Of a stretch of DNA of 64,000 bases, positions 57,429 through 64,000 are shown piece by piece. The number at the start of each line of letters is the position of its first letter. The stretch's first letter is position 1. The notes below the pieces were generated by a model. The model had not been told where the DNA came from and searched no databases. It saw only the letters and a list, made by a program, of their open reading frames with translations. The position numbers and the translations under genes are program-made. Source of the stretch: Zetaproteobacteria bacterium CG_4_9_14_3_um_filter_49_83 (GTDB lineage Bacteria > Pseudomonadota > Zetaproteobacteria > Mariprofundales > Mariprofundaceae); assembly GCA_002791545.1 (NCBI GenBank), contig PFXG01000068.1, positions 1 through 64,000 of the forward strand, read 5' to 3'.

Positions 57429-58631
57429 TTAATGACGTTGCATTAGACATGCCTTATCTATGTCGTAGTAATACTGGGAGATCGTTCTATCTTTGATCTT
57501 CTCAACCAACTCATCAATGACAAACAAAGGCACCAGAAACCACTCTCTGGGCACAACGGGATTGCCAAAGCGATCCTTAAGCTCGATATCTAAGCGAGCC
57601 GCACTAAAGAACTTATGGATCAGATTTTCCAGCTTGCTGCGATTGATATTGAAGAGTTCATAGGTTGCGACGATTTCAACGTCTGCCATTAGAAATGTAG
57701 GATCGATTTTCGCATTGGCAATGCGGCGTTCGACATTGTTTCCTGTCACTCCAATCTTGTGGATCACATCGCGGTTCTTGGTGATGATGGGGTTATCCGA
57801 TTTGCTGCGAAGCACATAAATTGTACCACTGGCCGAATCGTCATCACTGGACACGCCTGAAAACAAAGGCCCTGCGGTACTGCCTGGCATAGTTTCGACA
57901 ATACGGCGTCCTGTCTCATCCTTATTCAAGGCTCGTTGCAATGAGCGCAAAAGAATATCGCTCTCGGTTCCATTGTCATAAATGATGCGCAAGCGCGCAT
58001 CTTTCTTGCCATTTTGGTTAATAAAAAGCTCACCAACCTCGGCAACATAAACCTTCTGGCCGGACAGGATGAACAAGTCACCTTCTCTGATCTCTGCAAA
58101 GTCCCTGAACGCTTGAGTCGCCCGAATACCATTATTCAACTCTTCCTGAACAGCCTTGAAAATGGGCTTGAAATTGTCGAAATCCTTGCAGGCAGTTCGA
58201 CTGGCAATCTCTTCGGCAGCACGCACCTCCGCACGGGTCTTCACATGCTTCAGGTAGGTCACATCTCCCTCATGCGGCGTATCAACACCTAACTGCGCCA
58301 GCAGAGCCGCATCGTCCATCGCATAACCAGGCTCCGGCTCTTTTACTTCGAATGAGCTACCACCAAGCAACCCCTGATAATCCAGCTCCATGAGCAGGAC
58401 TCGACACTCCGATTGCTTCCGAATCTGATCGAGGCGAACAGCATACAGGCGCTCGAAAATATCCTTGCCTTCACCATGTTCCGGAGCATGACCAGCTTTC
58501 TCGACGAAACGCTGAATCTCCTCAAATCCGGCAATAATCCGCTCTTCCCTGGGCGAGCGGAAAGCCTTCTTTTTGGTCGACGTATCAACGCCCAGCTCTT
58601 GCAATAGCTCCAGATCGGACATCTCAGCCAT
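57429..58631 (-). CDS. GIY-YIG nuclease-domain protein paired with a DEAH helicase
   Basis: A 400-residue protein. The first 300 residues are helical with no motif I can name. The C-terminal part is a GIY-YIG domain of the T5orf172/Mug113 type: GTIYVLRSKSDNP, then VIHKIGVTGNNVERRI (catalytic Arg) and NRSKLENLIHKFF (catalytic Glu). It should cut DNA. The ATG at 58631 has GGAG seven bases upstream and lies eight bases inside the 3' end of the helicase gene, so the two proteins are made together. The likely role is a helicase-nuclease defence module; there is no methyltransferase nearby. Confidence 0.8.
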   Translation of the reverse strand: MAEMSDLELLQELGVDTSTKKKAFRSPREERIIAGFEEIQRFVEKAGHAPEHGEGKDIFERLYAVRLDQIRKQSECRVLLMELDYQGLLGGSSFEVKEPEPGYAMDDAALLAQLGVDTPHEGDVTYLKHVKTRAEVRAAEEIASRTACKDFDNFKPIFKAVQEELNNGIRATQAFRDFAEIREGDLFILSGQKVYVAEVGELFINQNGKKDARLRIIYDNGTESDILLRSLQRALNKDETGRRIVETMPGSTAGPLFSGVSSDDDSASGTIYVLRSKSDNPIITKNRDVIHKIGVTGNNVERRIANAKIDPTFLMADVEIVATYELFNINRSKLENLIHKFFSAARLDIELKDRFGNPVVPREWFLVPLFVIDELVEKIKDRTISQYYYDIDKACLMQRH

Positions 58632-60669
58632 TGTTCGCTCCAATGGTCTTCTGCTGCAAGAAGGCAATGCCTTCCGCCATGCGTTTTTCCCATGGATCTG
58701 GTGCTGTCAATGAAGGCAAACGTCCTCGCTCTTGTTTGAACTTCAATGCCCTCATGGCCAACTCACGCGCTTCCTCAATCGACAGATTGACTCGCTTACC
58801 CGCAATCACCGCTGCGACCTGTTTCAAGCTCTCTTCACTCATCGACTTGGCGAGAATCGCATAGGCCTCACTGAACGGGTTGATCCTGTCAATCATGTCT
58901 ATATCAAGATCACGAACGTCCATGGCGAACTTCCGCACACCATCGATAAGTGCTGTATTAGCTTTTATATCGTCGCCATTGTTATTCACGATCTCTTTGG
59001 CTTTCTGCGTCAGATTAAGAGCTGCAATTGCATGCTGGCGCACCGCTTCCTGATCCTCAGAATCCAATTCCGGATACTTCTCCTTGATGATCTTGCCCAG
59101 ACGAACCTGTGTAAGTTCCTCTGGCACCATCTCTTTATCGAAAAGTCCTTTCTCAAGGGCTGGCTTATCCTGCACGAAGGTGGCAATCACTTCATTCAGG
59201 TCTTGCTGGCAAATCCGCTGAGCATCTTCGCTTTTTGGTTCTGCCAAGCCTTTGACTTCGACATGGAACTGGCCTGTCTTCTCATTGAAACCAACATTGC
59301 TTTGATCTTGCTTGTAGCCTTCCGCGCCATAGTCGTAGCCATCCACTGGGCCACTCTGTGGGTGCTTAGGTGTGAAATTGAAGCGTGGAGCCAATACCTG
59401 TTCCATCAACAGGCTGGCGGCAATCGCCTTCAGGGTATCATTCACCGCATCGGTGACGGCTTCTTCCGTAGCATCCGGCTCGGCAATCAGGTTGGTAAAG
59501 CGTGCATGAGTCTTACCCTTGGCATCGCGGGTTGTGCGCCCGATAATCTGAATGATCTCCGTCAGGCTGGCGCGATATCCCACGGTCAATGCATGTTCGC
59601 ACCAAATCCAGTCGAAGCCTTCCTTGGCCATACCCAGTGCAATAATGATATCCACGAAATCACGGTTGCCGTTGGTCTCAACTCGCTTGAGTGAGGTGGT
59701 CACTTTGTCACGCTTGATCTCATCATCGACCAGATCGGCAATTCTCAATACACGCCCCTCAGCCGTCTTCACCAAGTGAAACCCCGTATCAGGATCAACG
59801 CCTTGCCAGTCGCCAAGCTCTTCAATGATGTGTTCGACTTCCTTGATCTTGTCTTTGGTACTCTCCCGTGAATTTACATTCGGAATGTGAATGATGGTTT
59901 TCTCGTTAGGGTCGAGCACACTCAGTATCTCTTCGGAATAGGCTCCCGAATAGAAGTAGTAGCCGATATCCAGCGTCTTCAGGTATTCATAGCCATTGAG
60001 CTGTTCATAGTAGGTGTAGGTAACGGTCTCAAACTTCGATTCATCCTGTGGTGATAGCACAGCCTCGGCATCACCTCGGAAATACGAACCAGTCATAGCT
60101 ACAATATGCGCTTTATCCCGTTCAATTAACTGCCCAAGGTGAGTGCCAAGTTTATTATCAGGGTTTGCGCTCACATGATGGAACTCATCCACTGCAATCA
60201 ATCGATTATCGAAAGCTTCGATACCAAAACGATCCACGGCAAAACGAAGTGTAGCGTGCGTACATACCAACACACGATCATCACTATCCAGAAAAGCTTT
60301 TACAGATTTGACCTTGCCACCATCTTCACCCAGCGCGTCGCAAAGATTCCACTTTGGTGCGACATGCCAATCAGCCCAGAAGCCAAATTGACTGAGAGGT
60401 TCATCATGAAAGCTTGATCCGATCGACTTCTCCGGCACCACGATGATTGCCTGCTTCAGGCCTTGGTTGTGCAACTTGTCCAAAGCAATGAACATCAAGG
60501 CTCGACTCTTACCCGATGCTGGAGGCGATTTGATCAACAGGTACTGCTCACCACGCTTTTCATAAGCGCGTTCCTGCATGGCACGCATGCCCAGCTCATT
60601 CGTTTTCTTGGAGCTGCCGTTGCAGGCGTAATTTACTGATACATGCGGAATCGCTTTGTGTTCTGTCAT
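58624..60669 (-). CDS. DEAD/DEAH-box superfamily 2 helicase of the accessory island
   Basis: A 681-residue SF2 helicase. Motif I is LLIKSPPASGKSRALMFIAL, motif II is AVDEFHHV, motif III is AMTGSY, and motif VI is QIIGRTTRDAKGKTH with the arginine fingers. A helical C-terminal region of about 250 residues (from VLAPRFNF onwards) is not recognisable. It resembles restriction-type helicases in motif spacing but carries no nuclease domain; that is provided by the overlapping GIY-YIG gene. GAAGG lies ten bases before the ATG. It starts 47 bases after the HigA-ImmA gene on the same strand. Confidence 0.88.
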   Translation of the reverse strand: MTEHKAIPHVSVNYACNGSSKKTNELGMRAMQERAYEKRGEQYLLIKSPPASGKSRALMFIALDKLHNQGLKQAIIVVPEKSIGSSFHDEPLSQFGFWADWHVAPKWNLCDALGEDGGKVKSVKAFLDSDDRVLVCTHATLRFAVDRFGIEAFDNRLIAVDEFHHVSANPDNKLGTHLGQLIERDKAHIVAMTGSYFRGDAEAVLSPQDESKFETVTYTYYEQLNGYEYLKTLDIGYYFYSGAYSEEILSVLDPNEKTIIHIPNVNSRESTKDKIKEVEHIIEELGDWQGVDPDTGFHLVKTAEGRVLRIADLVDDEIKRDKVTTSLKRVETNGNRDFVDIIIALGMAKEGFDWIWCEHALTVGYRASLTEIIQIIGRTTRDAKGKTHARFTNLIAEPDATEEAVTDAVNDTLKAIAASLLMEQVLAPRFNFTPKHPQSGPVDGYDYGAEGYKQDQSNVGFNEKTGQFHVEVKGLAEPKSEDAQRICQQDLNEVIATFVQDKPALEKGLFDKEMVPEELTQVRLGKIIKEKYPELDSEDQEAVRQHAIAALNLTQKAKEIVNNNGDDIKANTALIDGVRKFAMDVRDLDIDMIDRINPFSEAYAILAKSMSEESLKQVAAVIAGKRVNLSIEEARELAMRALKFKQERGRLPSLTAPDPWEKRMAEGIAFLQQKTIGANNG

Positions 60670-60715: not shown

Positions 60716-61798
60716 CTACTGCCACTGGTACCTTGCTTTCAGGCTGTTAAGCCTTGTACCCCATGGAAGCAGGCCTTCATTTTGCAATCTCCCGATTACA
60801 ATGCCGGGCGCGATCCCCAGCTCTTTTGCGAAAGCACTGATAGAAGTAGCCGAATGCCCCAACAGTATCAAACGCTCTTCATGCTGTTTGGGGATCAATA
60901 AATTGGCTGCAAACTGATTCGCTTCGTCTTCCTGTTCGTTATCCAGACCATTCCCTTCAATAAACAGCATTTTCTTGCCATGCAGCAACAAATGACCCGC
61001 CTCATGAAAAAAAGAAAACCACAAATGGTCGTTGGTTTTATGACGAAGGCTCAACATCAACAGTGTCTTATCGGATGCGATCCATTTCGTGGCTCCTGAT
61101 ACTGGACATCCAGTTGGTGCAGGTTCAAACACCACGGCCACGCCAGACGCAGCACATGCTTCCATCAATGCAGGTATAAACACACTCGGATTAGTTTCAT
61201 TGGTCAACGCACGTAACTCTTCAAGCGTGGCTTTGAATCGACCCTTATTGAAAGGGGCTGTACGAATGTCACTGGCCCGGCGCTCGCCCTGTCTGAGCCA
61301 TGCAGAAACGGCTCCCGGCTGTTTGTCGAACTTCCCACTTGCGCGAAATGCAGCCAGAGGAGATGCATATTTGTTGCGCCATGCATCAACCGAAGCCACG
61401 CCGAAAAATTTCAGTGCCTCGGACACCTGCTCGGCCTTGTTTTTGCACTTGCGCATCCATTGGCTATCCACCATGTGCTTAATAGGGATTTCCTTTAGCC
61501 ACGCCACATCATGTTCCAGCGCTTCCAGCTCGGTCTCTCTGGCAAGGGCTTCACGATACTGACTTTCGCGATTCATCCAGAAGCGTGCACTGCTGCCCAG
61601 CACCCGTTCCAGACGAATGGCTGCATCTTCCGTGATGGCAGACTTTCCATTGATCAACTGACTCACATGCTTGGGGCTAAAACCGATACGCTCGGCAAAC
61701 TCAGTCTGCTTCCAGCCGCGCTCTTCCAACAGATCGAGGATTGTGTCACCGGGCGTGGAAATCCAGTCCGGAGAAAAGGTTGCTGTTTGCTCAATCAT
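60716..61798 (-). CDS. HigA-type XRE antitoxin fused to an ImmA/IrrE metallopeptidase
   Basis: A 360-residue protein. The N-terminal HigA-like helix-turn-helix (ISTPGDTILDLLEERGWKQT; GFSPKHVSQLINGKSAITED) leads to a long linker and a C-terminal ImmA/IrrE domain with the zinc site WFSFFHEAGHLLLHG (HExxH) and the following acidic EDEANQFAANLLIP. HigA alone represses its own operon and neutralises HigB; the peptidase may cleave the regulator under stress. I use the ATG at 61798 (GGAG six bases upstream), which overlaps the HigB-like stop by eight bases. Confidence 0.88.
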   Translation of the reverse strand: MIEQTATFSPDWISTPGDTILDLLEERGWKQTEFAERIGFSPKHVSQLINGKSAITEDAAIRLERVLGSSARFWMNRESQYREALARETELEALEHDVAWLKEIPIKHMVDSQWMRKCKNKAEQVSEALKFFGVASVDAWRNKYASPLAAFRASGKFDKQPGAVSAWLRQGERRASDIRTAPFNKGRFKATLEELRALTNETNPSVFIPALMEACAASGVAVVFEPAPTGCPVSGATKWIASDKTLLMLSLRHKTNDHLWFSFFHEAGHLLLHGKKMLFIEGNGLDNEQEDEANQFAANLLIPKQHEERLILLGHSATSISAFAKELGIAPGIVIGRLQNEGLLPWGTRLNSLKARYQWQ

Positions 61799-62120
61799 GA
61801 TAATCTCCAATAAACACAATACACACTTTCGTCACTTCGTCCCATGCAATGGTTCCGTCGTCTTTGGTTGGCACTGGTTCATTCGCACTCTTGAAAACCA
61901 GTCGATCTCCACCATGCAAATCCACAGAAAACTGCCCTAATCGATCTCTTTCCAATGGATGTGGCCTGCCAGCCACAAGATCATCAACGACTTCGGCGGC
62001 CAGCAAATCTGCAAGTCGCGTTCTGAGCTTCTTGGCACTGAGCGCGCCATGTTTCTTTACCATCGCTCGCTGGTTTTCATACAGTTTCTGAAGCTCATTT
62101 GTTAAAAAAGAAATTTCCAC
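61791..62120 (-). CDS. HigB/RelE-like toxin
   Basis: A 109-residue protein of the RelE/ParE superfamily. Helix-rich start (ELQKLYENQRAMVKKHGALS), LRTRLADLLAAEVVDDLVAG and the family-like hairpin RDRLGQFSVDLHGGDRLVFK, ending KVCIVFIGDYHD. HigB toxins cut mRNA on the ribosome. The start codon is GTG at 62118-62120, only about ten bases from the predicted -10, so the mRNA may be almost leaderless. It overlaps the antitoxin gene by eight bases; toxin before antitoxin is the usual HigBA order. Confidence 0.85.
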   Translation of the reverse strand: MEISFLTNELQKLYENQRAMVKKHGALSAKKLRTRLADLLAAEVVDDLVAGRPHPLERDRLGQFSVDLHGGDRLVFKSANEPVPTKDDGTIAWDEVTKVCIVFIGDYHD

Positions 62121-62319: not shown

Positions 62320-62760
62320 TTATGCCCATTTTGGATTTGTCCTGATCTGATTGATCGTCCGCACCACAGCAACAAAAGCCGTTATAAACTCTGCCTTGTT
62401 TGGTAACATCAGGTTGTGACCCCATGGCAATTGTGCAACAGCCTCTTGCACAAATTCCGCATCCGGCCACGCTTCGGCAAATGCACGCATATACTTGAGG
62501 TTTCGCGGCGAGAACCCTTTCATATCGGGGAATGCAGCGCGCAAATCATGCGCCAGCCGCTCAATCACCTTCGCGCCCCAGCCCTGCTCCGCCTGCCGCG
62601 CCAGAATATCTCGCCCGATCTGCCAATAAAGCAGCACCAGCTCCCGGTTGACCGCCAGCGTGGCGCGCTGCTGCGCGTGATGGATACGATCTTTAAGATC
62701 AGCCAGCCAATCGGCATAACCCGCCGGCGGCGGTGTCAGGCTGACAGGTTTATCGCTCAT
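62320..62760 (-). pseudogene. DUF1016 (YhcG-like) nuclease gene, N-terminal part only
   Basis: From the ATG at 62760 (AAGGGG about ten bases upstream), the first 120 residues match the DUF1016 N-terminal domain. Segments are YADWLADLKDRIHHAQQRAT, LLYWQIGRDILARQ, GWGAKVIERLAHDLRAAFPD, FSPRNLKYMRAFAEAWPD and VAQLPWGHNLMLPNK. Similarity stops there; the last 24 residues are unrelated. The C-terminal PDDEXK nuclease domain, over half of the usual 340-380 residues, is missing, so a deletion has removed it. Whether the 146-residue product is made is unknown. Confidence 0.75.
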
Positions 62761-62800
62761 ACTTTTTTCCCCTTGCCACTTTCTTCGAGAGCCTGACCGT

Positions 62801-62872
62801 CGCCAAATCTCGCCTGAACCCAAGCGTCTTGCCTTCCGGAGATGACAGCAGCCGCTCAATATCCAATGTCAC
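62801..62872 (-). pseudogene. N-terminal scrap of an AlbA_2-domain protein
   Basis: From a GTG at 62870-62872 (AGGGG upstream), 24 codons read TLDIERLLSSPEGKTLGFRR followed by DLA. This is the common opening of AlbA_2/RecG-like ATP-binding proteins (consensus LL..GE.KTLEFKRDLS). The match ends abruptly, and the frame then overlaps the DUF1016 relic. It is a fragment left by deletion. Confidence 0.5.
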
Positions 62873-62901
62873 CCCCTATGCGCCATGCAAGACCGGCACC
62901 A

Positions 62902-64000
62902 TCATTCATCACTCCTCTTGATCAGCTTGCCCGTCTGTTTATCCACCCGATATTCAGATGGAGTATTGCTATACCATGATGAAAGCCCGCGCACAATGAT
63001 TTCGATTATCTCGTAAATTTGCCGCTTTTGACTGGTATCTTCTCTATCGGGATTATTCATTGCAAACTGCATCAGAACCTCTCCCCAGTCAGCGCCTTTA
63101 CCAAGCTGATTCAACTCCGATACGCTGCTTTTGGCAGCCTTAAATAAAGCGTCGCCAGAAGTAACGCCTTCCAGGGCAGCCTGCAGCGTTGTGCGTAATT
63201 CGGCGGCAGCCCCTCGCTCCACCGCCATATTCCATAGTATTTCTTCAAGCTCATTTACAGAAAAATTCCCAAACTCAAAATCAGGCTTCTGGATATAAAA
63301 CTCTCCATACATTTGATCTTGTTGTGCTGCTTGGCGTACGGCACGCTCGTTATCACTTACATCACCATCAAGTATCACGATACTCAAAATATGAGATTGC
63401 TTGTCCTGCCGAAGCGAATCCCGAAATGCCAACCCTTTGCCTTTCCTCTCGATAAATTGACCCTTCAGATTGATTAATTCCACGCCACTTTCCGGAGTAA
63501 AATAACTATCGAGAGCACCATATTCTGTCTCGCCCTCAACATAGCATCGAAAACGAGGGGCGGAATTCAGTCCGCAAGAACCAAGAAACTTCTTTCGCAC
63601 CACTTCCGATGCATCAAAAATTCGTTCAGTACCATATTTGATTTCCCGTGCTCCTCGCATCCATTGACCGAAACCCTTCTGATCTTCTTCCGGGAGGCTA
63701 ATATCAAAGGCTTCCTCAGTAGCTCTTCGCAATGTTTCTGCCATTGTCAGTAATAGCATGGCTCCACCGATTTCACCCTTGATTTTCAGCCGAACGTCCG
63801 CATTGGCCAATCGCAACAGGGTGTGAATCTCTTTGTTTGGATCAATCACTTCTGCCATCTGGCACAAGTCAGATCGTTTCGACTCGATGTCATCCACTCC
63901 GATCTCAGTGAGTAACGGATACACAAGGGTTTTGTAAAACGATAACGCCTCTTGATGGGCTTCATGGGTATAAGGGAATGACCTGAGTCGAATTTTGTGA
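62902..64000 (-). CDS. TOPRIM-like protein of unknown function, 5' end beyond the window
   Basis: At least 366 codons, open to the right edge without a stop. The start assigned to the GTG at 63924 is therefore only one possibility. A helical N-terminal part (YPLLTEIGVDDIESKRSDLC; GGAMLLLTMAETLRRA) is followed by a TOPRIM-like core. It has the metal Glu in RCYVEGETEYGALDSYF and the DxD pair in SIVILDGDVSDNERA, then ELEEILWNMAVERGAAAE. The C-terminus carries EIIEIIVRGLSSWYSNT. TOPRIM proteins of this size in islands are often OLD-like or other defence nucleases. I do not recognise the exact family. Confidence 0.6.
   Translation of the reverse strand, partial: HKIRLRSFPYTHEAHQEALSFYKTLVYPLLTEIGVDDIESKRSDLCQMAEVIDPNKEIHTLLRLANADVRLKIKGEIGGAMLLLTMAETLRRATEEAFDISLPEEDQKGFGQWMRGAREIKYGTERIFDASEVVRKKFLGSCGLNSAPRFRCYVEGETEYGALDSYFTPESGVELINLKGQFIERKGKGLAFRDSLRQDKQSHILSIVILDGDVSDNERAVRQAAQQDQMYGEFYIQKPDFEFGNFSVNELEEILWNMAVERGAAAELRTTLQAALEGVTSGDALFKAAKSSVSELNQLGKGADWGEVLMQFAMNNPDREDTSQKRQIYEIIEIIVRGLSSWYSNTPSEYRVDKQTGKLIKRSDE

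Follow-up and report, generated by a model that had tools for sequence, protein, structure and literature searches.

A helicase gene and a GIY-YIG nuclease gene overlap on the reverse strand of this Zetaproteobacteria contig, and they raise the question of whether such a pair forms a defence system that has no methyltransferase. The earlier note on this DNA had read the two proteins as made together in a setting of toxin-antitoxin genes and nuclease relics, had argued from the absence of a methyltransferase against restriction-modification (R-M), and knew of no established name for the pair. Here, we examined the pair itself, its homologous loci, and the contig beyond the window (the whole stretch of DNA under analysis, 64 kb at the start of a contig that extends to 126 kb). 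The features of the locus are listed in Table 1.

Table 1. Features of the locus, in contig coordinates (the same as window positions up to 64,000)
Feature	Position	Strand	Basis or remark
GIY-YIG (T5orf172) nuclease, YeeC-like, 400 aa	57429..58631	-	ORF and Pfam
SF2 DExH helicase/translocase, YeeB-like, 681 aa	58624..60669	-	ORF and Pfam
Overlap of helicase stop and nuclease start, 8 nt	58624..58631	-	ATGGCTGA
HigA-type HTH and ImmA/IrrE-like peptidase, 367 aa (cargo)	60716..61819	-	PD-Lambda-2_B-like, 4.3e-33
HigB/RelE-like toxin candidate, 109 aa (cargo)	61791..62120	-	weak match, E 0.09
Truncated DUF1016 (PDC-S02) gene, nuclease relic, 179 aa (cargo)	62320..62859	-	DUF1016_N only
Gene of 567 aa (cargo)	62902..64000 in the window; whole gene 62902-64605	-	no family match
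Perfect 31-bp direct repeat	62877-62907 and 64826-64856		around the 567-aa gene
109-bp copy of the methyltransferase 3' end	64682-64790 (copy of 68035-68143)		91% identical
N6-adenine methyltransferase, MmeI family, DnmA/YeeA-like, 928 aa	67,989-70,775	-	intact ORF; same strand as the pair

The helicase and nuclease genes are intact

The helicase matched the Pfam families DEAD (1.3e-7) and ResIII (1.6e-6) and contains a Walker A motif (PPASGKS, residues 49-55), a DEFH motif (161-164), and a motif VI (QIIGRTTRD, 374-382). The nuclease matched T5orf172 (2e-13) and MUG113 (1.7e-15), both of which are GIY-YIG families, and its nuclease domain covers residues ~269-379. When homologues were aligned (25 and 21 sequences), the helicase showed invariant motor motifs (PPASGKS, DEFH, and GR.TRD) except for the variable T379, and residues G269/Y272, K292/G294, R303, E335, H339, and E363/W364 of the nuclease were invariant as well. 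Given that these motifs are invariant and both frames are open, the two genes are real, intact, and under constraint. The nuclease starts at the ATG at 58631, the TTG at 58667 being merely the longest possible start, and the reported overlap of eight bases is exact. We also judge it right that the pair is made together in a defence and toxin-antitoxin setting. The N-terminus of the nuclease is a helical domain that resembles the C-terminus of the helicase; by hhalign, the last ~50 residues of the helicase (58648-58800) and the first ~50 residues of the nuclease (58412-58574) were alike with an E-value of 3e-4 and a probability of 39%, and they possibly represent a docking or DNA-binding domain duplicated across the overlap.

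Searches of PADLOC and NCBIfam with the helicase and nuclease alone returned only weak and uninformative matches (PbeA, Cas3, and Dnd), which is why the pair seemed to be an orphan until its relatives and the contig past the window were read. No target-recognition domain was found in either protein with Pfam or NCBIfam, and sequence searches of the PDB, profiles included, gave no matches for either of them. A structure model of the helicase of moderate quality (pLDDT 69.7, pTM 0.48) was used for a fold search, in which the predicted fold matched SF2 motors, MrfA among the best and HsdR of EcoR124I and LlaBIII among the others, a likeness that is not specific for restriction enzymes. For the nuclease, whose model reached pLDDT 78 and pTM 0.38, nothing in the PDB matched significantly; eIF5A-like hits, which represent at best a small beta-barrel at residues about 170-230, were set aside.

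A methyltransferase gene lies past the window edge

The statement that the pair is without a methyltransferase holds only inside the window. An intact methyltransferase gene begins ~4 kb past the window edge, and it lies outside because 7.3 kb of other genes (a gap of 7,319 bp) separate it from the helicase gene. The encoded protein matched all five MmeI Pfam domains (MmeI_N, MmeI_hel, MmeI_Mtase at 6.6e-108, MmeI_TRD at 6.8e-82, and MmeI_C), with the PF20473, PF20466, and PF20464 matches far over cut-off, as well as the MmeI structure 5HR4 (3.5e-137). It carries motif I (DPACGSG) and motif IV (NPPY), it is the sole MmeI-type methyltransferase or PF20473 protein of the genome, and apart from its MmeI_TRD no target-recognition domain was found in the system. 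The search of defence collections that had been recommended for the pair was uninformative for the two proteins themselves, but in the same collection, PADLOC, the methyltransferase matched REase_MTase_IIG (9.4e-285).

We then compared the methyltransferase with MmeI (Type IIL/IIG, PDB 5HR4). The spacer, methyltransferase, target-recognition, and C-terminal domains align in order. However, MmeI has its own N-terminal PD-(D/E)XK nuclease with D70, E80, and K82 (PMC4833311), while the alignment with the present protein starts past this nuclease, residues 1-90 not being alignable to MmeI. Moreover, the N-terminal region had no conserved column and no invariant D, E, or K across 31 homologues. A second difference from MmeI is that the helicase and nuclease are separate proteins here.

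The three genes occur together at homologous loci

The helicase was found in 25 of 397 genomes across the phylum, this genome counted, in a patchy distribution, and its homologues occur on 264 plasmid records, one of them annotated as 'restriction/modification system component YeeB'. At 34 homologous loci, we read up to about 19 kb of neighbouring sequence; these loci comprise 25 other whole-genome loci (24 genomes), 3 Proteobacteria plasmids, 2 genome contigs, and 4 plasmids picked for taxonomic spread (Bacillota, Actinomycetota, Cyanobacteria, and Vibrio). The methyltransferase was upstream of the helicase on the same strand at 34/34 loci, in Proteobacteria, Bacillota, Actinomycetota, and Cyanobacteria, and usually overlapped the helicase gene or lay tens of bases from it. 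The nuclease followed the helicase at 33/34 loci, the exception (L004) being a fragmentary MAG contig. Conserved co-occurrence, which the earlier note had proposed to count, is therefore found for the pair and also for the methyltransferase, and with a DnmA (MmeI-type) partner at every homologous locus inspected the argument against R-M no longer stands.

The helicase-nuclease junction was exactly -8 at 19/33 loci, and nearly all junctions were within about 60 bp. Since the -8 junction recurs in this way, the 8-base overlap is a family trait rather than a peculiarity of this locus, and its conservation across phyla argues for purifying selection, which would act on both genes. One could also think of a Type IV-like modification-dependent system, or of a repair helicase and nuclease unrelated to restriction, in view of the high-ranking fold matches to SF2 helicases such as MrfA; this is most improbable, because the distribution is patchy, many homologues are on plasmids, and the sequence-specific methyltransferase partner is constant.

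In distance matrices from 25 loci, the methyltransferase-helicase and methyltransferase-nuclease correlations were both r 0.93 (0/2000 permutations). In the closer 20 loci, r was 0.45 for methyltransferase-helicase and 0.41 for methyltransferase-nuclease (0/2000 permutations), and 0.74 for helicase-nuclease. That the three proteins co-vary speaks for a unit in which they would work together, although shared descent contributes to these figures and stays in them. The tighter helicase-nuclease correlation might also be expected if the two genes were an autonomous, methylation-free defence module and the methyltransferase a mere island neighbour, and it is true that the helicase and nuclease are translationally coupled to each other but not to the methyltransferase, and that cargo is able to separate the latter from the helicase. 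However, this explanation is very unlikely in our view, because the methyltransferase is constantly present, usually directly beside the helicase, and neither the helicase nor the nuclease has a target-recognition domain of its own.

The locus belongs to the dnmA-yeeB-yeeC cluster

By family and gene order, the pair and the distant methyltransferase are strongly indicated to be a dnmA-yeeB-yeeC (yeeABC) cluster: an MmeI-family methyltransferase without its own nuclease, an SF2 helicase downstream on the same strand, and a T5orf172 nuclease directly after it. The pair does have a name, YeeB/YeeC, under which it is described in PMC7261158 and PMC9973331, and both proteins match a known R-M system as the partners of DnmA, a result that the earlier note itself had named as speaking against its reading. 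DnmA of Bacillus subtilis is an MmeI homologue without the nuclease motif that makes m6A at GACGAG (PMC7261158), and in a survey across bacteria, homologues of yeeB and yeeC occupied the next two places (+1 and +2) behind dnmA (PMC9973331). The cluster has been suggested to be a Type I-like (PMC7261158, PMC9973331) or noncanonical (PMC7261158) R-M system. The B. subtilis cluster restricted neither three phages, against which it gave no protection (PMC9973331), nor transformation (PMC9973331, PMC7261158), while deletion of dnmA or yeeB in Vibrio crassostreae raised phage sensitivity (cited in PMC9973331).

The present locus shares with the B. subtilis cluster the m6A MmeI-type methyltransferase, the SF2 helicase, the T5orf172 nuclease, their order and orientation, and the island setting with toxin-antitoxin genes, and differs from it in that 7.3 kb of cargo splits the methyltransferase from the helicase. 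In our comparison, Bacillota were represented by Ligilactobacillus salivarius in place of the B. subtilis proteins. In the plasmid copy of this species (L069:3310-5985), the methyltransferase is annotated in pieces with its N-terminal part interrupted, and the helicase and nuclease are intact. Taken together, the locus represents an intact but otherwise ordinary case of an R-M-like family that is known yet incompletely understood, and it was mis-described as methyltransferase-free because of the window boundary.

Cargo genes separate the methyltransferase from the helicase

The cargo genes lie at contig 60716-67825, and among them the toxin-antitoxin genes and the nuclease relic that had been noticed nearby are indeed present. 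A HigB/HigA-ImmA pair also adjoins the helicase in a relative, G017 (L046). Further cargo comprises a DUF6978/DUF1828 pair (PDC-M24-like), a pair of ORFs encoding a 141-aa protein and a 135-aa HTH protein, and a separate 159-aa ORF. The 567-aa cargo protein has VEGETE and DGD motifs and is TOPRIM-like by eye only. The stop codons of the 159-aa and 567-aa genes fall within the 31-bp repeat, which is not a genome-wide element, as its 21-bp core has no genome copies beyond these two. The 109-bp relic copy sits 3.35 kb downstream of the true methyltransferase end, as if a module had been inserted or recombined at the end of that gene.

In L046, a genome of the same family, the insert is 7.1 kb long, shares some of the cargo modules, and additionally carries a retron-like reverse transcriptase. 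This 252-aa protein (L046:8215-8970, plus strand), encoded in the methyltransferase-helicase gap, has retron St85-type reverse transcriptases as its nearest matches, far below the cut-off. At 11/34 other loci the methyltransferase-helicase gap was at least 270 bp, and ten of these gaps hold plausible genes that differ from the cargo seen here, including RhuM, PD-(D/E)XK, Fic, RelBE, reverse transcriptase, and others. A contiguous methyltransferase-helicase operon is thus usual but not defining for the family, and contiguity is absent here. At the helicase-nuclease joint, no cargo was clearly seen in the 34 other loci, and only one joint exceeded 200 bp (L066, 211 bp, where the nuclease start is uncertain). 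These results suggest that the methyltransferase-helicase joint tolerates or favours insertions and that the helicase-nuclease coupling is protected, in a small sample that is uncorrected for kinship. More tentatively, and with somewhat less than even confidence, we propose that defence and toxin-antitoxin modules (RhuM, Fic, PD-(D/E)XK, RelBE, HigBA, retron-like reverse transcriptase, and PDC candidates) preferentially settle at this joint, brought there by a recombination route that would leave duplicated methyltransferase ends, whereas the helicase-nuclease joint would never be opened. If this is true, the island would be growing within a restriction operon.

The insertion at the present locus might be taken as a sign of decay, with the methyltransferase now an orphan that acts in gene regulation, the helicase and nuclease no longer restricting, and the toxin-antitoxin cargo keeping the locus in place. 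Such a state was proposed for B. subtilis, where deletions had no effect on the three phages or on transformation, and in the present locus toxin-antitoxin genes part the methyltransferase from the helicase and are accompanied by repeat scars and the 109-bp duplicate. However, all three ORFs are intact and of full length, the motor, nuclease, and methyltransferase motifs are invariant, and the exact 8-nt coupling is kept across phyla. We regard a relic as an unlikely explanation, although it is the most serious of those considered.

Proposed mechanism and relation to other restriction systems

We consider it likely that the helicase and nuclease are the restriction arm of a three-gene system of the dnmA-yeeB-yeeC kind, to which the methyltransferase gives specificity. 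Gene content and order, intact motifs, co-occurrence, co-variation, and an unconserved nuclease region in the methyltransferase are the observed part of this model. The methyltransferase, a one-strand MmeI-type N6-adenine enzyme with the sole target-recognition domain, would mark the asymmetric sites of the host, and when bound at an unmarked site on incoming DNA it would recruit the helicase and nuclease. The helicase, an SF2 motor of the HsdR, Type ISP, or CglI sort, would then travel along the DNA using ATP, and the GIY-YIG nuclease, delivered with it, would cut the DNA. As predicted from sequence, the specificity supplied by the methyltransferase, together with ATP-driven translocation and cutting, would allow restriction of phages or plasmids in this host. 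The 7.3-kb cargo would be a later insertion that left the helicase-nuclease coupling in place; with the methyltransferase at this distance from the helicase, co-expression is not assured.

Type I R-M (HsdR) and Type ISP (LlaBIII) systems likewise combine a methyltransferase, an SF2 motor, and a nuclease, but their PD-(D/E)XK nuclease is fused to the motor, whereas here a separate GIY-YIG protein is found. Unlike in Type I, there is no separate HsdS, and the target-recognition domain is within the methyltransferase. CglI of Corynebacterium glutamicum has separate nuclease and helicase subunits that act in one complex in ATP-dependent restriction (PMC5737866), but there the site, 5'-GCCGC-3', belongs to the nuclease-helicase complex itself, and the parallel drawn here is one of working principle. 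By analogy, we infer that the resemblance to Type I, ISP, and CglI lies in the working principle and does not make the locus a member of those types.

Significance

With this assignment, a false candidate for a methyltransferase-free helicase-nuclease system is removed. Other YeeB/YeeC pairs merit a search for a distant DnmA, because cargo can hide the partner by several kilobases. Given that the cluster is widespread and its activity is disputed, being inactive in B. subtilis and active in V. crassostreae, intact members such as this one are useful test cases.
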